Positions 34,247 to 49,334 of a stretch of 64,000 bases of DNA are shown in pieces. The notes under the pieces are model-generated. The model did no database searches, was not told the origin of the DNA, and saw only the letters and a program-made list of their open reading frames with translations. The translations under genes and the position numbers were made by a program. The stretch's first letter is position 1. Each line of letters opens with the position of its first letter. The DNA is from Devosia beringensis (GTDB lineage Bacteria > Pseudomonadota > Alphaproteobacteria > Rhizobiales > Devosiaceae): contig NZ_CP045422.1 in the NCBI RefSeq assembly GCF_014926585.1, positions 3,130,001 through 3,194,000 of the forward strand. The letters are read 5' to 3'.

Positions 34247-34750
34247 ATGGCCGCTGAAGCGGAAATCGAAGACGGCGCAGAGCCCAAAAAGGGGATCCCC
34301 AAGCTCTTCATCATCATTGGTGCGGTTGCCGTGGTGGTCCTGCTGGGCGGCGCGGCGGCGTTCTTCTTCCTGTCCTCGGGCACGGCGGAAGCCGAGCATG
34401 GCGCTGAAACCACCGATGCGCATGGCGGGGTCATCGAGGCTGCGCATACCTTCATCTTCAACCTGCCGCCGATGATCATCAACCTCAACAACGAGGCCGA
34501 TGGCGAGGCCTTCATGAAGCTGACCGTGGCGCTTGAAGTGGCCAATGAAGAGATGATGCTGGAAATCCAGCCGCGCATGGCCAAGGTGATCGACGCGTTC
34601 CAGGTCTATCTGCGCGAGCTGCGCAAGTCTGACCTCGACGGTTCGGCCGGGGTGTACCGGCTCAAGGAAGAGCTGCTGCGTCGCGTCAACGTGGCCATCT
34701 ATCCGTCGCGGGTCGAGTCCGTGCTGTTCAAGGAAATCCTGGTGCAGTAA
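34247..34750 (+). CDS. fliL: Flagellar basal body protein FliL
   Basis: A 167-residue single-pass inner-membrane protein. A 15-residue acidic N terminus precedes the membrane segment (LFIIIGAVAVVVLLGGAAAF); the periplasmic domain shows NLPPMIINLNNEADGEAFMK, LTVALEVANEEMMLEIQPRM and INVAIYPSRVESVLFKEILV-like blocks. It associates with the stator and affects torque. It begins the operon fliL-fliM-DUF6468-motE-TPR, and its stop overlaps the fliM start by one base. Confidence 0.94.
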   Translation: MAAEAEIEDGAEPKKGIPKLFIIIGAVAVVVLLGGAAAFFFLSSGTAEAEHGAETTDAHGGVIEAAHTFIFNLPPMIINLNNEADGEAFMKLTVALEVANEEMMLEIQPRMAKVIDAFQVYLRELRKSDLDGSAGVYRLKEELLRRVNVAIYPSRVESVLFKEILVQ

Positions 34751-35925
34751 TGGCAGACCCCAGCGAACAGGACAAACTCAGCGACGATTGGGGGCTGGAT
34801 GACACGGTCATCCCGCTCGACGTCGAGGTCGAGCAGTCCGACGAGGAAAAGGCCGCCGAAGCCACTGCCGAATGGGCAGCCATGCTCGAAGGCGATACCG
34901 GGGACGGCGAGGGCGGTCCCGACCGCGTGCTCAACCAGGACGAAATCGACAGCCTGCTCGGCTTTGACTCCAGCATCGGCAGCAATATCGAGCTGACGGG
35001 CGTACAGGCGCTGATCAATTCGGCGCTGGTGAGCTATGAACGCCTGCCGATGCTCGAAATCGTCTTTGACCGCCTGGTGCGGCTGGCGACGACGAGTCTG
35101 CGCAATTTCACCTCCGACAATGTGGAAGTGACGCTCGATTCCATTTCGTCGGTGCGGTTCGGCGATTATCTCAACTCGATCCCGCTGCCGGCCATCCTGT
35201 CGGTGATCCGGGCCGAGGAATGGGAAAATTACGGCCTGCTCACCGTCGATTCCAGCCTGATCTACTCGATGATCGACGTGCTGCTGGGCGGTCGCCGTAT
35301 CGGCGGCAATATCCGCATCGAAGGCCGGCCCTATACGACCATCGAGCTGGCGCTCGCGCGGCGGATGATCGAGGTGATCCTCGACGACACGCATCGCGCC
35401 TTCGAGCCGGTGACCAATGTCAATTTCAAGCTCGAGCGCATGGAAACTAATCCGCGCTTTGCTGCGATCTCGCGGCCGGGCAATGCGGCCATCCTGATCG
35501 AGCTGCGCATCGAGATGGACGACCGCGGCGGCAAGATCGAAATCCTGCTGCCCTATGCCACCATCGAACCCATCCGCGAACAGCTGCTGCAGATGTTCAT
35601 GGGTGAAAAATTCGGCCGCGATGCCACCTGGGAAGGCCATCTGGCCACCGAGATCTATTCGGCGGACGTGACGGTCGACGCCATCCTGCACGAGCAGGAT
35701 GTGCCGCTGTCGAAGATGATGGCGATCCAGCCCGGCGACACCTTGATGTTCGAGCGTTCGCCCAATGATCCGGTCCGGCTGCGCTGCGGCGGGGTCGAAC
35801 TGACCGAGGCCATCATGGGCCATATCGGCAATCTGGTCTCGGTGCGGGTTACCCGCCCGCTCAATCCGCCCAAGGTGACCATGGAAGCCTTTGAAGCAAT
35901 AGACGAAAAATCGGAAGGACGATGA
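34750..35925 (+). CDS. fliM: Flagellar motor switch protein FliM
   Basis: A 391-residue FliM. The usual C-terminal SpoA domain (SADVTVDAILHEQDVPLSKM, then MAIQPGDTLMFERSPNDPVR) follows a CheC-like middle (SNIELTGVQALINSALVSYE, then LTVDSSLIYSMIDVLLGGRR). The N-terminal 60 residues are acidic (DDTVIPLDVEVEQSDEEKAA) and include LNQDEIDSLLGFD, the CheY-P binding motif. It forms the C-ring and sets rotation direction. It overlaps the next gene by four bases (ATGA). Confidence 0.95.
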   Translation: MADPSEQDKLSDDWGLDDTVIPLDVEVEQSDEEKAAEATAEWAAMLEGDTGDGEGGPDRVLNQDEIDSLLGFDSSIGSNIELTGVQALINSALVSYERLPMLEIVFDRLVRLATTSLRNFTSDNVEVTLDSISSVRFGDYLNSIPLPAILSVIRAEEWENYGLLTVDSSLIYSMIDVLLGGRRIGGNIRIEGRPYTTIELALARRMIEVILDDTHRAFEPVTNVNFKLERMETNPRFAAISRPGNAAILIELRIEMDDRGGKIEILLPYATIEPIREQLLQMFMGEKFGRDATWEGHLATEIYSADVTVDAILHEQDVPLSKMMAIQPGDTLMFERSPNDPVRLRCGGVELTEAIMGHIGNLVSVRVTRPLNPPKVTMEAFEAIDEKSEGR

Positions 35926-36359
35926 TGTTCGGCTTGCCCCTTGGACTGTTCGTGGAAAGTGCAGTGGCCGTTCTGCTGGCGCTGACAATCGGTTACTGCA
36001 TCGTGCTCAATCACCGGCTGAAGATGCTGCATGCCGACAAGGACGTGTTGCGGCAGATGGTGGCCGACCTGGTGGGGGCCACCAATCTGGCCAACCAGGC
36101 GATCAAGGAGCTCAAGCAGACGGCGGTTGAAGCCGATCTGTCACTGAATTCGCGGCTGGAAGAGGCTGAGCGGTTCGGCATCGAGCTGGCCAATCACGTC
36201 AATGCCGGCACGGTGCTGATGGAGCGCATCGCGCGCATCACCAGCGTGGCGCGCCACAGCCAGGCCATCGAGCCAATCGAGCAGCCGGTGCCCAACAAGG
36301 TGCAGTCCGCGCTCGAACAGCTGCAGTCCCGGGTGCGGACACGGGGAGCGGCAGCGTGA
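35922..36359 (+). CDS. DUF6468 membrane-anchored flagellar protein
   Basis: A 145-residue protein with one N-terminal membrane helix (FVESAVAVLLALTIGYCIV) followed by a long alpha-helical region likely to form a coiled coil (LGATNLANQAIKELKQTA-like heptads). It belongs to the DUF6468 group found next to fliM in Hyphomicrobiales. Its role is unknown; position and topology suggest a stator- or switch-associated protein. It overlaps fliM and motE by four bases each. Confidence 0.75.
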   Translation: MMFGLPLGLFVESAVAVLLALTIGYCIVLNHRLKMLHADKDVLRQMVADLVGATNLANQAIKELKQTAVEADLSLNSRLEEAERFGIELANHVNAGTVLMERIARITSVARHSQAIEPIEQPVPNKVQSALEQLQSRVRTRGAAA

Positions 36360-37447
36360 CAACTATCCGCCTGCTGCCGGTCGTCGTGCTGGCCATTGGT
36401 GCCCTGCTGGTGTTCAAGACCATGGGGCTGGTCACCAATGGCAGCTATGTGCTGACCGGCGCGCGGCAGGCACAGGCATCGGGCGCCGCGGCGCCCGCGG
36501 CTGGCGCTGAAGGCGAAGACGCGCTGGCCTTGCCGCAAGAGCATACAATGGAAGACACCAGCCCGACGCTGGGCGATCAGGCGCCAACCATGAAACCGCA
36601 AAGTGCCGCGGCTGACCATGGCGCTGCGGCGCCTGCTGCGGGTGACCACAGTACACCCGAAGCGGCGGCGGGAGACCACGCGGAGACCGATCCCGCGGCA
36701 GTCGATGGCGCCGTCCCGGCGACCGACGCGGTTCCGGCAGTGGTCAGCGGCACCTATTGCCTGGATTCCGATGCCGCCATCGATGCCGAGGGCAATGTGC
36801 AGCTCAATCCGGCCAAGGCCGTCGAGGGCGCGGCGCATGGCGCGGAAGAACCGGCCGTGCCCCCGCGCAGCGGCGACCCGATGCCGGCCTTTGCCGCCTC
36901 CATGGCAGACTGCCTGCCGACCGGCGACGCCGTACCGCTGCTGATCGACGGGCAGGGCGGTTCGGAGCCGCTGCTGTCGACCGACACGGCCACCGATACC
37001 GAGCAATTGCTGCTGCAGCGGCTGTCGGCACGGCGCGACGAGCTCAAGAAATACGAAGACGACCTGACCCTGCGGTCTTCCATCGTCGATGCGGCCGAAA
37101 AGCGCATCGAAGAGCGTACCGCGACGCTGACGGCACTCGAGGCGCAGATATCGACGCTGGTGGATCAGCGCACGGAGATGGAGAGCGGCCAGTTCGCCGG
37201 GATCGTGGCGATGTACGAAACCATGAAGGCCAAGGATGCTGCGCTGATCTTCAACAATCTGGACATGGAAGTGCTGCTGCAAGTGGCCAAAACCATGAGC
37301 CCGCGCAAGATGGCGCCGATCCTGGCGGAGATGGATACGGCCCGCGCACAGGAGCTGACGGTCAAGATGGCGGCCCTGGCGGACCGTCCGGTATCGGAGA
37401 TGGCGCCCGAAGATCTGGCCGCCTTGCCACAGATCGTGGGTCAGTAA
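36356..37447 (+). CDS. motE: MotE-family protein (MgtE_N-like)
   Basis: A 363-residue protein with an N-terminal export or anchor segment (TTIRLLPVVVLAIGALLVFK). Residues 30-160 are Ala/Pro/Thr/Glu-rich and probably disordered. A coiled coil follows (TEQLLLQRLSARRDELKKYE) and the C-terminal MgtE_N-like domain shows FAGIVAMYETMKAKDAALIF, NNLDMEVLLQVAKTMSPRKM and LAEMDTARAQELTVKMA. In Sinorhizobium, MotE is a periplasmic chaperone of the motor protein MotC. This copy is longer than usual because of the disordered linker. The next gene encodes a large exported protein that may be its client. Confidence 0.78.
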   Translation: MTTIRLLPVVVLAIGALLVFKTMGLVTNGSYVLTGARQAQASGAAAPAAGAEGEDALALPQEHTMEDTSPTLGDQAPTMKPQSAAADHGAAAPAAGDHSTPEAAAGDHAETDPAAVDGAVPATDAVPAVVSGTYCLDSDAAIDAEGNVQLNPAKAVEGAAHGAEEPAVPPRSGDPMPAFAASMADCLPTGDAVPLLIDGQGGSEPLLSTDTATDTEQLLLQRLSARRDELKKYEDDLTLRSSIVDAAEKRIEERTATLTALEAQISTLVDQRTEMESGQFAGIVAMYETMKAKDAALIFNNLDMEVLLQVAKTMSPRKMAPILAEMDTARAQELTVKMAALADRPVSEMAPEDLAALPQIVGQ

Positions 37448-37463: not shown

Positions 37464-37478
37464 GTAAGGCGCCGTTAA
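37464..37478. promoter_or_regulatory. CtrA-type site upstream of the TPR gene
   Basis: GTAA GGCGCCG TTAA differs from TTAA-N7-TTAA by one base. It lies between motE and the large TPR gene, so that gene may be transcribed separately from the fliL operon. Confidence 0.4.
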
Positions 37479-37586
37479 GCCCGGGCCGCTAGGGTGCGCA
37501 GCACGAATATCGTGTCATCCTGCGCGTCTTGCCGGCCCAGAACAGGGTACGGGACACGCGCCTTGCGTCGGGGCGGGCAGAAGCCG

Positions 37587-40500
37587 GTGAAGAGCGCTTT
37601 CCTTGCAGGTCTGGTGCGGGTCCGAAAGGTCTTGGCGCTTCTGGCCGCGCTGACGGTGCTGGGGCTTGCCGGGCCGGTCGCCAGCGCCGAGCAGGGTCAG
37701 CTGCTGGGTACCGAGGAAGACGGCTATGGCCGGCTGATCCTGAGCTTTCCGGGGCGCGATTCCCTACCCACCTATACGATGCGGATCGAAAATGGCGTGC
37801 TGTCGCTGGAATTCGACGAGCCGATCGCGGTAATCCTGCCCGATGTGGGCACCGTGATGCCGGACTATCTGTCGGTGGCCCGGGTCGATCCGGACGGTCG
37901 CGGCCTGCGCATCGGCCTGCGGTCCGCCTTCAGCTTCAACCGCATCGAGGCCGGCGAGAAGCTCTATATCGACTTGCTGCCGCTGGACTGGCAGGGGCAG
38001 CCGCCGCCGCTGCCGCAAGACGTGATTGCCGAGCTGGCCGAGCGCGCCAGGCTGGCGGCGATCAAGGCCGAGCAGGAGCGCAAGGCGGCGGGGGTGATCG
38101 AGCTCAACCCGCAGGCAAGCGTGCGCATCGGGCGCAATCCCACCTTCCTGCGCGTGCAGTTCGACTGGAACGTGCCCACCACCGGCGCCTTTGTCCAGGA
38201 CGGCGATATGGGCATGATCGGCTTTGAATGGCCGGTCGGCATCGACCTGCGCGACCTGGCCATCGACCTGCCGCCCGAGCTGCTGACGGTGGAAAGTGCG
38301 GTCAACCCGGATGGCGCCACCGTGACGCTGCAGCTGGCCGAGGGGGTCAAGCCGCGGTTTTACGAGAATTCGCCGCGGCAATATATTCTCGACATCGATA
38401 TCGCCGGGGACGGTCCGCCCAGCTTTGATGCAGCGACCCTCGCCGATGGCGTGGCCAAGCAGGATGCCGCGGCAGGGGAGCCGCCATCCACCGATCCGCT
38501 GGTGGGCATGCTGTTCCCCGAATCGGCCGGCAAGACGGTCACGCCCTTTGTCAGCGTGCTGGGCTCCACAGTGCGGGTGGTATTTCCGTTCGAGCAGGAC
38601 ACGCCGGCAGCGGTGTTCCGGCGCGGCAATACGGTGTGGATGCTGTTCGACACCGTGTCGGGAATTGCGCCGCCCACGCAGTCCGATGAGCTCGATGCCC
38701 TGGCCAGCGAATTTGCGGTGGTCGCCTCGGGCGACACGCAGGTGGTGCGGGTCGAGCTGTCGGAGGAAAGGCTGGCGACGCTGGGATCGGAAGGCATGGC
38801 CTGGGTGCTGTCGCTGGGCGACATCATGCTGACGCCGACCGAGCCGATCGAGCTCAGCCGCCGGCGCGACGTCGAAGGCAATTTCGAAGTTGTGGCCCAG
38901 ATGGACCGGCCGGCACGGGTGCATGATTTCCGCGACCCCAATGTCGGGGATGTGCTCAAGGTCGTCACCTCCTATCCACCGGCGCGCGGCCTGTCGCGTT
39001 CGCTCGACTATGTGGATTTTTCAGCCCTGCGCAGTGTGCATGGTCTGGTCATCAAGCCCGAGAGCGAAGACTTGTTGGTCAGCGTCGAGAACGATCTGGC
39101 CGTGCTGAGCGTCCAGGGCGGGCTGACGGTATCGACCATCGACGGTCCCCGGTCGGTGGGCAATGGCATTACCGAAGCGATGCGCGGGGGCTTTGTCGAT
39201 CTGGCGCGGCTGGAGCAGCCCGATTTCGGCCTGTTCGCCGAGCAGCAGCATGAAATGCAGTCCAAGGCCGCCAATGCCGAGGGGGAAGCGCGCGATCCTG
39301 CCCGCCTCGATCTGGCCCAGTATTACATTGCCAACCAGTTCCCGCAGGAAGCCATCGGCGTGCTCGAGGTGCTCGAGCAGGACCTCAAATCGACGGACCT
39401 GACCGGCAAGATGCGGCTGTCGCGGGCGATTGCCGACACCATGGCCAGCCGGCCGCTGGATGCCCTCAAGATCCTCAATACCGCCTCGATGGGCAAGGAA
39501 GTGGATGCGCTGGTCTGGCGCACCATCGCGCGCACCGAAAGCTATGACTACAAGGGCGCGAAGAGCGATGCGCTGGAGGGGCTGTCCGTCGTCGACAACT
39601 ATCCCATCTGGGTGCGCAACCGGTTCTACTTCTCGGCGATCCGCTCGGCCATCGAGGCCGGTGATCCCGACATGGCCGAGCGCGTCCTGGGGCAGATCGA
39701 CTTTCCGAGCCTTGATGCCGAGGACAGCAGCCTGTTCCATCTGCTGTCGGGGCGGATCGACGAGGCCAATGGGCGGGTCGCCGAGGCCATCGACACCTAT
39801 GGCCAGGTGATTGCCGCCGATTTCAGGCCGACGCGGGCCGAGGCCATCTACCGGACGCTGCATCTGCTCGATGAAGCCGGCAAGCTCAACCTGGCCAAGG
39901 CTACCGAGACACTCTCGGCGGAATCGCTGCTGTGGCGCGGCAATCCGCTCGAGGCGGATATGCAGAAGCTGCTGGCGGAACTGTATTTCCGCAATGGCGA
40001 CTACCGCCTGGGCTTTGAAACCGTCAAGCAGGCGGTGGCCAACTATCCCGAGAGCCCGCCGATCAATGCGCTGCGCGACGAGGCCCAGAGCATGTTCGGC
40101 GAGCTGTTCCTCAATGGCGTGGCCGATTCACTGGGGCCGGTGGATGCCCTTGGCCTCTATTACGACTTCCGCCAGCTGACCCCGCCGGGCGCGCGCGGCG
40201 ACGAGATGATCCGCAACCTGGCGCGCCGGCTGGTGCGGGTGGATCTGCTGGCGCAAGCGGCCGAACTGCTCGATTATCAGCTCAACAACCGGCTGCGCGG
40301 CATTGCCAAGACGCAGATCGCGGCCGACCTGGCGGTGATCTACCTGGCGGACCGCAAGCCGCAGGATGCCATCAGGGTGCTCAATGCGACCCGCATGGAA
40401 GGCATGCCGGAATCGCTGGCGCGGCAGCGGCGCGTTCTGGAGGCGCGGGCGATGATCGATGGCGGGCGCGATCAGCTCGGCCTCGACCTGATTCGCGACC

Positions 40501-40931
40501 TGGATGGGCTGGACGTGACGCTGATGCGCATCGACGCGCATTGGAAGGCGAAGCGCTACAGCCAGGCGGCCGAGATGATCGAGGCGCTCTATGCCGGTCC
40601 GACGACCGATGCCGCGCTGAGCCAGCCGGCGCGGATGGGCGTGATCCGGGCGGCGGTGGGCTATGTGCTGGCCAATGACCGGATGGGCCTGGCACGGCTG
40701 CGTTCCAAGTTCGGCGAAGCCATGGTGACATCACCGGAATGGCCGATGTTCGACCTGGTGACGGGCAATGTCGAGGTGACGAGCCTCGAATTCAAGACGG
40801 TCGCGGCCCAGGTGTCGGGCGTTGAAGGCATCAATGCCTTCCTCGCCTCCTATCGCGATACTTATGGGCCCGATGGTGCGCTGGCGCCCATGGTGGCGTC
40901 AGACGCCACGACGGGTAGCGGGAACGTCTGA
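37587..40931 (+). CDS. Large exported TPR-like protein in the flagellar motor operon
   Basis: A protein of about 1,114 residues, not assigned to a named family. A signal peptide (VKSAFLAGLVRVRKVLALLA, cleavage near ASAEQ) leads to three beta-rich segments: about 40-140 (RLILSFPGRDSLPTYTMRIE), 175-275 (TFLRVQFDWNVPTTGAF) and 315-420 (VRVVFPFEQDTPAAVF). From about residue 565 it is helical with TPR-like units (LAQYYIANQFPQEAIGVLEV; IDTYGQVIAADFRPTRAEA; DLAVIYLADRKPQDAIRVLN). The start is a GTG at 37587; the open frame reaches 37494. It follows motE by 139 bases and converges with fliP. I infer a periplasmic motor-associated scaffold, perhaps the local MotC equivalent. The beta domains recall AMIN-type domains. 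Confidence 0.7.
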   Translation: MKSAFLAGLVRVRKVLALLAALTVLGLAGPVASAEQGQLLGTEEDGYGRLILSFPGRDSLPTYTMRIENGVLSLEFDEPIAVILPDVGTVMPDYLSVARVDPDGRGLRIGLRSAFSFNRIEAGEKLYIDLLPLDWQGQPPPLPQDVIAELAERARLAAIKAEQERKAAGVIELNPQASVRIGRNPTFLRVQFDWNVPTTGAFVQDGDMGMIGFEWPVGIDLRDLAIDLPPELLTVESAVNPDGATVTLQLAEGVKPRFYENSPRQYILDIDIAGDGPPSFDAATLADGVAKQDAAAGEPPSTDPLVGMLFPESAGKTVTPFVSVLGSTVRVVFPFEQDTPAAVFRRGNTVWMLFDTVSGIAPPTQSDELDALASEFAVVASGDTQVVRVELSEERLATLGSEGMAWVLSLGDIMLTPTEPIELSRRRDVEGNFEVVAQMDRPARVHDFRDPNVGDVLKVVTSYPPARGLSRSLDYVDFSALRSVHGLVIKPESEDLLVSVENDLAVLSVQGGLTVSTIDGPRSVGNGITEAMRGGFVDLARLEQPDFGLFAEQQHEMQSKAANAEGEARDPARLDLAQYYIANQFPQEAIGVLEVLEQDLKSTDLTGKMRLSRAIADTMASRPLDALKILNTASMGKEVDALVWRTIARTESYDYKGAKSDALEGLSVVDNYPIWVRNRFYFSAIRSAIEAGDPDMAERVLGQIDFPSLDAEDSSLFHLLSGRIDEANGRVAEAIDTYGQVIAADFRPTRAEAIYRTLHLLDEAGKLNLAKATETLSAESLLWRGNPLEADMQKLLAELYFRNGDYRLGFETVKQAVANYPESPPINALRDEAQSMFGELFLNGVADSLGPVDALGLYYDFRQLTPPGARGDEMIRNLARRLVRVDLLAQAAELLDYQLNNRLRGIAKTQIAADLAVIYLADRKPQDAIRVLNATRMEGMPESLARQRRVLEARAMIDGGRDQLGLDLIRDLDGLDVTLMRIDAHWKAKRYSQAAEMIEALYAGPTTDAALSQPARMGVIRAAVGYVLANDRMGLARLRSKFGEAMVTSPEWPMFDLVTGNVEVTSLEFKTVAAQVSGVEGINAFLASYRDTYGPDGALAPMVASDATTGSGNV

Positions 40932-46760: not shown

Positions 46761-49334
46761 ATGGCATTGACGCCCCTCGGCGAGGACTCCTATCCCGATC
46801 CGCTCATTGCCAATGGCCGCAATGGCGCCGGCCTGTGGCGGGTGGTGCTGCTGGGCGTGGTGCTGGTGGGCATTGCCGTGGGCTTTGCGCTGTTCGGCGA
46901 CCAGGTCTCGCCCGACCTGATCATGACTTTTGTCGGCGTGCTGGCGGTGGTGGGCGTGTTCTGCCTGTTCGCGCTGGCCGCCGGGCTGTTCCGCTTTGCC
47001 AATGGCGAAGAACGGCGGACGATTTCCAATGCGGTGGTCGACAGCCTGCCCTTCGGCGCCGTGGTGGCCGATCGCGATGGCAAGATTGCCTATGTGAATG
47101 CCCATTACGGCAGCTTTGCCGGGGCCCTGACCAATGGGCTGCCGGTGGGCGTGCCGCGGCTGTTTGCCGGTCAGTCCGACGCCAGCGAGGCCATCTACCG
47201 GCTGTCGCGGGCCGCCAAGGACGGACGCGCCGCCATCGAGGATATCCGTATCATCGGCGGGCTGGGCGGTTCGCAGGCCAATGCCAACAAGGCCTTCTGG
47301 TATCGCGTCATGGTGCGGCCACTGCCGGAATCGGACGAGGCCAGCAAGCCCATAGTGATCTGGTCGGTGGAGGACATCACCCGCGACCGCGACAGCAATG
47401 AGAGCGCCTTCCGCGACCTGCAGCGGGCGATCGACTATCTCGACCATTCGCCGGCCGGCTTCTTCTCGGCCGATGCGCATGGCCGCATCCAGTACCTGAA
47501 CTCGACGCTGACCGACTGGCTGGGCTATGACCTGGCCGAATTCAATTCGGGCCAACTGGGCATGTCCGACATCGTGCGCGGCGACGGCGCAACGCTGCTG
47601 ATGCGCGGCCGTGGCGATGGCGAGATCCGTACCGAGATCATCGATATCGACCTGGTGCGCCGCAATGGCACCAGCCTGCCGGTGCGGCTGCTGCATCGTG
47701 CAGCGCGGCTGGCCGATGGCGAGCTGGGCGAGACGCGTACCCTGGTGCTCGACAAATCCAATGCGCCGGACAATGAAGAGGAACTGCGCGCGGCCGAGGT
47801 GCGGTTCTCGCGCTTTTTCAACGACACGCCCTTTGCCATTGCCACGCTCGACGCCGATGGGCGGATCATCCGCACCAATGCGCCGTTCGGGCGGATTTTC
47901 CACTGGGCGGGCGAGGAAAAGAGCATCGAGATGGAGCCGCTCAGCGCGCTCATCGGTGAGGGCAGCCGCGAGCGCTTCGGCAAGGCCGTCGGCGAGGCGC
48001 TGGCGCATCGCAGCGAGATCGAACCGGTGGACGCGCTGCTCAGCGTCGAGGGCGATCATGCCGTGCGGCTTTATCTGTCGGCCTCAGAAATGAGCGCCGG
48101 CTCGCCCGAGCAGATCAATGTCTATGCGCTGGACATGACCGACCAGCGCAAGCTGGAGGCCCAGTTTGCCCAGAGCCAGAAGATGCAAGCCGTGGGCCAG
48201 CTGGCCGGTGGGGTCGCACACGATTTCAACAACCTGCTCACCGCCATTATCGGCTTTTCCGACCTGCTGCTGCTCAAGCACAAGCCGGGCGACCCCTCGT
48301 TCAGCGAGCTGATGCAGATCAAGCAGAACGCCAATCGCGCCGCGGGCCTGACCCGGCAGCTGCTGGCCTTTTCGCGCCGGCAGACGCTGCGGCCGCAGGT
48401 GCTCGAACTGCCGCTGATCGTCGACGATCTGACGGTGCTGCTCAAGCGCATGATCGGCGAGAAGAACACGCTGACCGTGCAGCATGGCCGCAATATCTGG
48501 CCGGTGCGCGCCGATGTGGTGCAACTCGAACAGGTGATCATCAACCTGGTGGTCAATGCGCGCGACGCCATGGACAAGGGCGGCTCGATCACGCTGCGCA
48601 CCGCCAATGTCGATCGCTCGGAAGCGGCGACGCTCAATTTCGAGGGCATGGTGCCGGCCGATTATGTGCTGATCGAGGTGCAGGATACCGGCACCGGCAT
48701 GACGCCCGAAGTGATCGCCAAGATCTTCGAACCGTTCTTCACCACCAAGGAACTGGGGAAGGGCACGGGCCTGGGCCTGTCGACGGTCTATGGCATCGTC
48801 AAGCAGACCGAGGGTTTCATCTATCCCGTCTCGGTGGTGGGTGTGGGCACGACGTTCAAGATCTTCCTGCCGCGGCATGTACCGGACGAGAACGAAGTGG
48901 CGGCCAAGGTGGCAGCCGCGGCGGCGCCGGTGCGCGACCTGACCGGGCATGAGCGGATCCTGCTGGTCGAGGACGAGGAAAGCGTGCGCGCCTTCTCGGC
49001 CCAGGCGCTGCGTGCCACCGGCTATGAGGTGTTCGAGGCCGATGGCGGCGAAGAGGCCATGGAAGTGCTGGCCGATATCGACTTCAAGATCGACCTGATG
49101 ATCTCGGACGTGGTGATGCCGGAAATGGACGGTCCGAGCCTGCTCAAGGAAGTGCGCAAGACCATGCCGCATCTCAAGGTGATCTTCGTGTCCGGCTATG
49201 CCGAGGAAAGCGTGCGTCGCGATATCGAGGACGACCAGAGCGTGGAATTCCTGCCCAAGCCCTATTCGCTCGACCAGATCAATTCCAAGGTCAAGCAGGT
49301 ACTGCAGAAGCTCGGCAAGGACGAGGTGCATTGA
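46761..49334 (+). CDS. cckA: Cell-cycle hybrid histidine kinase CckA
   Basis: An 857-residue hybrid kinase. Two membrane helices (about 26-46 and 53-76) are followed by PAS-like regions (about 88-205, 222-333 and 345-460), then the HisKA domain with phospho-acceptor H487 in LAGGVAHDFNNLLTAIIGFS, the HATPase domain (NLVVNARDAM, DTGTGMTPE, GKGTGLGLS) and a receiver domain with D783 in MISDVVMPEMDG and K833 in LPKPYS. The order and the HDFNNLLTAI box identify CckA, the kinase/phosphatase that controls CtrA through ChpT. It lies downstream of flhB, an arrangement seen in other alphaproteobacteria, and CtrA-type sites precede the flagellar operons in this window. Confidence 0.93.
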   Translation: MALTPLGEDSYPDPLIANGRNGAGLWRVVLLGVVLVGIAVGFALFGDQVSPDLIMTFVGVLAVVGVFCLFALAAGLFRFANGEERRTISNAVVDSLPFGAVVADRDGKIAYVNAHYGSFAGALTNGLPVGVPRLFAGQSDASEAIYRLSRAAKDGRAAIEDIRIIGGLGGSQANANKAFWYRVMVRPLPESDEASKPIVIWSVEDITRDRDSNESAFRDLQRAIDYLDHSPAGFFSADAHGRIQYLNSTLTDWLGYDLAEFNSGQLGMSDIVRGDGATLLMRGRGDGEIRTEIIDIDLVRRNGTSLPVRLLHRAARLADGELGETRTLVLDKSNAPDNEEELRAAEVRFSRFFNDTPFAIATLDADGRIIRTNAPFGRIFHWAGEEKSIEMEPLSALIGEGSRERFGKAVGEALAHRSEIEPVDALLSVEGDHAVRLYLSASEMSAGSPEQINVYALDMTDQRKLEAQFAQSQKMQAVGQLAGGVAHDFNNLLTAIIGFSDLLLLKHKPGDPSFSELMQIKQNANRAAGLTRQLLAFSRRQTLRPQVLELPLIVDDLTVLLKRMIGEKNTLTVQHGRNIWPVRADVVQLEQVIINLVVNARDAMDKGGSITLRTANVDRSEAATLNFEGMVPADYVLIEVQDTGTGMTPEVIAKIFEPFFTTKELGKGTGLGLSTVYGIVKQTEGFIYPVSVVGVGTTFKIFLPRHVPDENEVAAKVAAAAAPVRDLTGHERILLVEDEESVRAFSAQALRATGYEVFEADGGEEAMEVLADIDFKIDLMISDVVMPEMDGPSLLKEVRKTMPHLKVIFVSGYAEESVRRDIEDDQSVEFLPKPYSLDQINSKVKQVLQKLGKDEVH

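Follow-up and report, generated by a model that had tools for sequence, protein, structure and literature searches.

Among the described components of the flagellar motor, FssB of Caulobacter and MotK of Cereibacter are the proteins with which the subject of this report has to be compared first. FssB (CC_2058) contains a Sec signal and tetratricopeptide repeats (TPR), and its deletion is reported to result in a motor that is unable to turn the filament (PMC7885107). For Cereibacter, MotK and MotE are described as periplasmic interaction partners of MotB2, both of them required for rotation (Velez-Gonzalez et al. 2024, PMC10954123). The same publication gives the gene order fliL-pflI-motE-motA-motK, assigns an AMIN-like N-terminus to MotK and reports no BLAST similarity of MotK to Caulobacteraceae proteins. 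Here, we analysed a 64,000-nucleotide stretch of Devosia beringensis (contig NZ_CP045422.1, positions 3,130,001 to 3,194,000; the window), in which the gene behind motE encodes a protein of 1,114 amino acids, termed X. X is the Devosia member of this known family of flagellar motor proteins; the member is new, but its kind is known.

A further point of reference is PflA, a periplasmic motor scaffold protein of Campylobacter, which is reported to consist of one AMIN-like β-sandwich and 16-17 TPRs (PMC11870540, PMC12222027). An interaction with FliL and FcpO is described for the AMIN domain on its own and not for full-length PflA; FlgY requires its long helix for the interaction with PflA (PMC11870540). 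A review of 2026 suggests homology between MotE and FlgY/FlbB as well as a correspondence of PflA to MotC, MotK and CC_2058 (PMC13023049), and in a model put forward in 2025-2026 proteins of this class are the spokes of an E-ring made of MotE/FlgY. Both the E-ring/spoke preprint and the review (PMC13023049) join the three proteins to PflA by structural likeness, given their low similarity in sequence.

X is a motE-linked protein with AMIN repeats, a TPR part and a signal-peptide-like N-terminus, and it is tied to flagella across the Alphaproteobacteria. Very likely, it is the Devosia counterpart of FssB and MotK in function as well, i.e., a periplasmic motor scaffold of the PflA type that would act as a spoke between the MotE E-ring and the stators. 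A MotE-partnered scaffold of PflA design had already been suggested in a first-pass annotation of the window, and this suggestion is now supported by synteny, by co-occurrence with FliM, by a structural model with AMIN and TPR parts, by the top Foldseek match and by the published requirement of FssB and MotK for rotation. The term uncharacterised, used there for the protein, no longer applies to the family, because mutants of two counterparts have been published.

Relationship to FssB and MotK

X shares with FssB and MotK the position of its gene downstream of motE in an operon of the fliL-pflI-motE type, an N-terminal AMIN-like domain, which is present in three copies in X, and a C-terminal helical/TPR part. 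The link to MotK is provided by a protein of 747 residues from a locus (L211) with the order fliL, motE, motA, X, which is the published motK order if the pflI place is left out of the comparison. By profile comparison, X is homologous to this protein: the X profile matches it at E 1.1e-9 in its genome, over profile positions 161-356, which correspond to the AMIN part, and in another genome from this family (G022) two stretches are matched, at E 1.2e-9 and 2.1e-7. When the L211 protein is aligned with the X family by hhalign, E 6.7e-13 is obtained over 618 columns; this and all following hhalign E-values refer to single pairwise comparisons and are not database E-values. Its AMIN domain matches repeat 2 of X at 7.8e-10, repeat 1 at 1.3e-5 and repeat 3 only at 0.0039, and hhalign returned no match of this domain to domain 4 of X or to the TPR controls.

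Similarity confined to the TPR part was rejected as proof of homology, since generic TPR proteins used as controls reach E-values down to 1.2e-8 on the TPR part of the X family profile. The MotK link therefore rests on the AMIN match and on gene order. A sequence-level link of the X family to the MotK-order protein was not found in print in the literature searched.

The sphingomonad-like relative at locus L073 was also considered as a MotK, but this assignment was rejected: the protein is similar to plasmid-encoded proteins of Erythrobacter and Sphingobium, and AMIN-type repeats appear to be missing from it. L073 and L095 both encode such sphingomonad-type relatives of approx. 550 amino acids, apparently without these repeats, and one of them is located on an Erythrobacter aureus plasmid together with a flagellar cluster.

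Domain architecture of X

The AlphaFold2 model of X, based on 41 aligned relatives, has a mean predicted local distance difference test score (pLDDT) of 85.8 and a predicted template modelling score (pTM) of 0.54; for the β part modelled again alone with 40 sequences, these values are 88.5 and 0.49. Inspection of the N-terminus by eye reveals a hydrophobic stretch, modelled as a helix at residues 2-26, and the sequence ASA at residues 32-34 followed by EQ, in line with a putative signal peptide. The first-pass annotation had counted three β-rich segments, where the model shows four, and had estimated about 500 residues of TPR-like helices, where the modelled superhelix has about 555 (Table 1); Pfam TPR_14 scores above its cut-off.

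β domains 1-3 are mutually homologous, with hhalign E-values of 4.6e-29 (1/2), 2.7e-13 (1/3) and 1.6e-15 (2/3). No relation of domain 4 to these three was detected by hhalign (E 0.095-0.19, compared with 0.23 and 0.26 for two TPR controls). Within the X family, the Pfam domains AMIN-like and AMIN are found in 22 and 8 of the 41 members, respectively (E<=0.1). The repeats are not universal: judged by alignment occupancy, 6 of these 41 sequences lack most of repeat 1, 4 lack most of repeat 2 and 1 lacks most of repeat 3. Devosia has three AMIN-type repeats, the relatives from Azospirillum and from the MotK-order locus have one that could be detected, and the sphingomonad-like one apparently has none. 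The most conserved block of the family is located in the C-terminal half of the superhelix, where the modal frequency is at least 0.8 in 31 of 100 columns among 41 class-wide sequences and in 64 of 100 columns among 30 Devosiaceae sequences.

With the full model, the best of 1,535 PDB matches returned by Foldseek (E<=10) is 9hmf_K (E 1.1e-9), which belongs to the periplasmic scaffold of C. jejuni, and the runner-up is a chain of the IFT-A complex (E 7.7e-7). Chain 9hmf_K is probably PflA, as indicated by its length of 773 and the numbering of PflA constructs in PMC12222027. With the β part, PilQ (3jc8) ranks first (E 1.9e-3, probability 0.99), and the amidase AmiC (4bin) is found at rank 24 with a probability of 1.00 and a root-mean-square deviation of 4.1 over 111 columns.

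The resemblance of the AMIN-type domains to PilQ and AmiC, together with weak PilQ profile matches, could be taken to mean that X serves the peptidoglycan or secretion across the outer membrane, as a component either of the PilQ/secretin type or amidase-associated, and is encoded in the flagellar cluster by chance. This is extremely unlikely, because X contains neither a secretin nor an amidase domain among its Pfam and NCBIfam matches (E<=1) and is tightly linked to motE and to the presence of FliM; moreover, the PilQ sequence matches of the X profile, which were rejected, are weak and in good part rest on alanine/proline-rich sequence. Matches to SctY and PrsT were likewise dismissed, as they are below cut-off and located in the TPR part. 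A structural match to a secretin system had been named in the first-pass annotation as an outcome that would speak against a motor function. What was found are β domains that resemble the AMIN domains of PilQ and AmiC, and no secretin domain; PflA itself is reported to contain such an AMIN-type domain (PMC11870540).

Linkage to motE and to flagella

Gene neighbourhoods were compared in 40 loci chosen among 104 X-positive genomes, mostly those with stronger matches. In each of the 40 loci, motE is located upstream of X and in the same orientation, at a distance of up to 300 nucleotides in 7 and with a median distance of 1,474 nucleotides. In 75 of 80 named loci motE is again on the same strand; of the five exceptions, four start where a contig starts or ends, and the fifth (L178) offers 5.8 kb upstream of X in which motE was not detected. 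In family f65, the order fliL-fliM-motE-X is present in two of six fetched loci, with an X of approx. 970 amino acids, and no motE was detected in the other four. A relative from an Azospirillum brasilense plasmid (L096, 6630-9014; 794 amino acids with TPRs and one detected AMIN-type domain) aligns with the X family at a pairwise hhalign E of 1.4e-40. Its gene is located directly upstream of motA-motB, and no motE was detected in the fetched stretch.

The MotE-like protein of the window matches MgtE_N with E 1.2e-4 and the model of the spirochaete collar protein FlbB with E 5e-6, but neither score reaches the curated cut-off. Across the motE family, these two models are matched by 40 and 39 of 41 members, respectively (E<=0.01), and at the level of such domain matches the window MotE fits the proposed homology to FlgY/FlbB. 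The motE family profile retrieved only TatA-type and coiled-coil matches from the PDB sequences.

In 13 of the 40 relatives (e.g., L044, L058, L070 and L074), the interval from motE to X contains a gene for a CheY-like receiver of approx. 128 amino acids. CheZ is present in both CheY-receiver loci that were scanned for it.

In a search with one sequence, relatives of X were found in 104 of 190 alphaproteobacterial genomes, and FliM in 108. Both proteins are present in 99 genomes, only X in 5, only FliM in 9 and neither in 77; the Fisher test on this co-occurrence ignores kinship, which inflates the odds. Of the nine genomes with FliM only, three (G057, G112 and G152) contain X after all when searched with the profile. 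No X match was found in a fourth (G045, 85% complete), where the contig ends soon after motE. The remaining five (G008, G012, G104, G142 and G150) lack an X profile match better than 0.01 and a motE profile match at E<=1, and their flagellar locus is differently ordered. In five X-negative alphaproteobacterial genomes (L079-L083), FliM is divergent and its locus, which includes fliP, fliQ, fliR and flhB, has another gene order, which suggests a different flagellar lineage.

Of 299 genomes of the phylum, 34 are matched by the X profile at E<=1e-15, all of them from the same class. In a larger sample of the class, 164 of 289 genomes are matched at E<=1e-6, although the weakest of these may be generic TPR matches. 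In family f149 of the same order, X is absent from 13 listed genomes, while FliP is present in 13 of 13; here, MotC may do the job of X.

MotB-like genes in front of X

An iterated search with six seeds revealed MotB-like genes in the interval between motE and X in 22 of the 40 loci, and two such genes in 20 of these. Tandem pairs directly precede X at L037, L039, L041, L042, L044-L047, L052, L054, L057, L058, L060, L061, L063-L066, L068 and L071. The second copy retains the proton-binding aspartate of MotB in 20 of 20 cases, and the first copy has serine, glycine or alanine at this position in 19 of 20. Among the copies scanned with Pfam, MotB_plug scores above its cut-off in 3 of 3 downstream copies; in upstream or single copies it is below the cut-off in 3 of 4 and missing in the fourth. 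The tandem genes look like a heteromeric MotB-type pair. The Devosia genome contains a single MotB-plug gene, beside motA and approx. 375 kb away, and the pair is absent. A literature search on the MotB pair found nothing on point, and its position before X was not found in print in the literature searched.

The proximity of X to motAB or MotB-like genes in relatives speaks for a motor scaffold of the kind favoured here, but would also be compatible with a role mainly as a stator activator and client in the manner of Sinorhizobium MotC, i.e., X would be stabilised by MotE and bind MotB to open the channel, without spoke or ring. In agreement with this, MotK and MotE of Cereibacter interact with MotB2, the localisation of MotK is reported to depend on MotA2 and MotB2 (PMC10954123), and stator activity is described to require FssB (PMC7885107). 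However, MotK of Cereibacter is reported to be stable without MotE, while MotE needs MotK, which is the reverse of a chaperone-client pair (PMC10954123), and the length and TPR architecture of X would rather fit a scaffold. We give this alternative limited credence and regard it as unlikely.

The variation in repeats and MotB-like genes could also indicate that X belongs to a stator scaffold that has not yet been described as a unit. In such a scaffold, the number of AMIN-type repeats would vary by lineage and tune how far or how firmly the stators are held, many lineages would add the heteromeric MotB-like pair encoded just before X, and Devosia would have a long spoke without the pair. This extension is doubtful.

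Proposed function

According to the spoke model favoured here, X would first be exported via Sec. The C-terminal end of its TPR part, which includes the most conserved block, would dock on the coiled coil of the MotE dimer, placing it at an E-ring around the MS-ring. From there, the TPR superhelix would run outward as a radial spoke, and the AMIN-type repeats would reach FliL, the periplasmic domain of MotB and/or the peptidoglycan. The stators would thereby be held and opened at the rotor, and in the absence of X the flagellum would be built yet not turn. Both the docking and the stator role are predictions for Devosia.

Several observations weigh against this model. The Foldseek comparison proposed in the first-pass annotation did identify a C. 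jejuni scaffold chain as best PDB match, but the superposition of X on 9hmf_K is poor, with template modelling (TM) scores of 0.15/0.20 and a root-mean-square deviation of 31 Å over 904 columns. Low TM-scores may be expected for a flexible superhelix, yet the match does not prove a shared fold. Diverse other TPR proteins come after 9hmf_K at approx. 1e-6, and none of the 9hmf chains is matched by X at E<=1 in phmmer; with the X profile, no 9hmf chain is among the best 60 of 63 matches in PDB sequences. The β part alone has no Foldseek match in the PDB better than E 0.001, and Devosia X itself has no Pfam AMIN match. Because the sphingomonad-like relative L073 appears to lack AMIN-type repeats, these cannot be essential everywhere. 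The alignment of generic TPR controls to the family profile, mentioned above, also belongs here, as do two further locus sets. In the second set, which was fetched for absent or weaker matches, 11 loci contain X, and motE was found in 4 of them and not detected in 7; in the third, it was found in 5 of 10 and not detected in 5, with one locus (L087) occurring in both sets.

Gene start and surrounding genes

X is the last gene of the run fliL-fliM-DUF6468-motE-X, which is encoded on the + strand throughout (Table 1); a protein of about 1,100 residues in a motor operon next to a motE-like gene had been correctly recognised in the first-pass annotation. From fliL to motE, four genes each overlap the next by 1-4 bases. 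motE and X are separated by 139 nucleotides, in which a terminator-like site was looked for and none was seen.

The frame of X is one long open reading frame (ORF) of 1,145 codons when counted from its first GTG (37494-40931, + strand). Most likely, translation starts at the GTG at 37587, because conserved coding in Devosia relatives begins around this codon, and the upstream frame varies among them, save for a short stretch just before it. The GTG at 37494 was rejected for this reason. The first-pass annotation had placed the beginning of the gene at 37464, where the codon is GTA and thus no start codon. The closest named relatives of X are from Devosia, with a best identity of 82%, and the host genome has a size of 4.05 Mb. 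Class-wide homologs and the finding that third codon positions differ most in six Devosiaceae comparisons argue for selection on the protein.

Table 1. Positions of X, its predicted domains and the upstream genes within the window
Feature	Position	Strand	Basis
fliL	34247..34750	+	family search
fliM	34750..35925	+	family search
DUF6468 protein, PflI position	35922..36359	+	Pfam PF20072 5.2e-20; PflI name inferred from published gene order
MotE-like (FlgY/FlbB class) protein, proposed E-ring partner	36356..37447	+	N-terminal hydrophobic segment by eye; MgtE_N region
X, FssB/MotK-type protein, very likely a spoke, 1,114 amino acids	37587..40931	+	ORF; start from Devosia relatives; AlphaFold2 model
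Putative signal peptide (1-34, ASA/EQ)	37587..37688	+	by eye on translation; model helix 2-26
β domain 1, AMIN-like repeat (36-132)	37692..37982	+	AlphaFold2 models, hhalign, Foldseek
Linker helix (144-168)	38016..38090	+	AlphaFold2 model
β domain 2, AMIN-like repeat (177-271)	38115..38399	+	AlphaFold2 model, hhalign; matches N-terminal AMIN-like domain of MotK-order protein
β domain 3, AMIN-like repeat (321-411)	38547..38819	+	AlphaFold2 model, hhalign
β domain 4 (422-509), no detectable sequence relation to domains 1-3	38850..39113	+	AlphaFold2 model, hhalign
TPR-like helical superhelix (539-1093), ~555 residues	39201..40865	+	Pfam, AlphaFold2 model
Block of highest conservation in the family (860-960), candidate docking end for MotE/E-ring	40164..40466	+	conservation; role inferred

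Behind the flagellar cluster, past flhB and an ORF on the opposite strand, the window contains cckA for a cell-cycle kinase (46761-49334), and in 6 of the 40 relatives flhB is likewise followed by a gene resembling cckA. Two genes that we take to be fliP and fliO, going by their sequences and gene order, are convergent behind X, and presumably flgF-flgG-flgA-flgH, named in the same way, are divergent in front of the run. These divergent genes next door would suit a basal-body assembly or placement factor outside the torque machinery, e.g., for the P/L-ring or for polar positioning. The same applies to the DUF6468 gene of the operon, which is in the place of PflI, a protein reported as implicated in flagellum positioning (PMC10954123). 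Such a function is nevertheless very improbable for X, as FssB and MotK mutants are described to make flagella that do not rotate.

Comparison with known systems

The inventory of alphaproteobacterial motor components is still incomplete, and periplasmic rings of unknown composition are reported from Caulobacter tomograms (PMC7534056); for motor tomography in Devosia, the literature search found nothing relevant. The sequence profile that unites X with the MotK-order protein, combined with the conserved fliL-fliM-DUF6468-motE-X locus, points to one gene to delete in many species. Variation in repeat number and the paired MotB-like genes provide testable handles on stator anchoring.

In comparison with described proteins, the β repeats of X share their fold with the AMIN domains of PilQ and AmiC, but the secretin or amidase domain of these proteins was not found in X. 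MotC of Sinorhizobium meliloti is published as periplasmic and MotE-dependent. PflA appears to resemble X in the succession of an AMIN-like β-sandwich and a long TPR superhelix, and it is reported to interact with FlgY, an E-ring protein held to be of the MotE class. Different from X, PflA has a single AMIN domain, 16-17 TPRs and PflB as a rim partner, and sequence similarity to X is not detectable. MotK has, according to its published description, a MotE partner, a signal peptide, an N-terminal AMIN-like domain and a helical C-terminus; X shares the latter two and has a putative signal peptide and a proposed MotE partner, and the MotK-order protein matches the X profile; the protein compared here is that of L211 and not Cereibacter MotK itself. 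In contrast to X, MotK has 652 amino acids and one reported AMIN-like domain instead of three, and in its locus motA is inserted between motE and motK. FssB is published with a Sec signal, which in X is putative, and with TPRs as in X; it is encoded beside the motE-like CC_2059, and residues 36-132 are stated for its AMIN-like region, identical in numbering to β domain 1 of X. With its added AMIN-type repeats, Devosia X is a long form.

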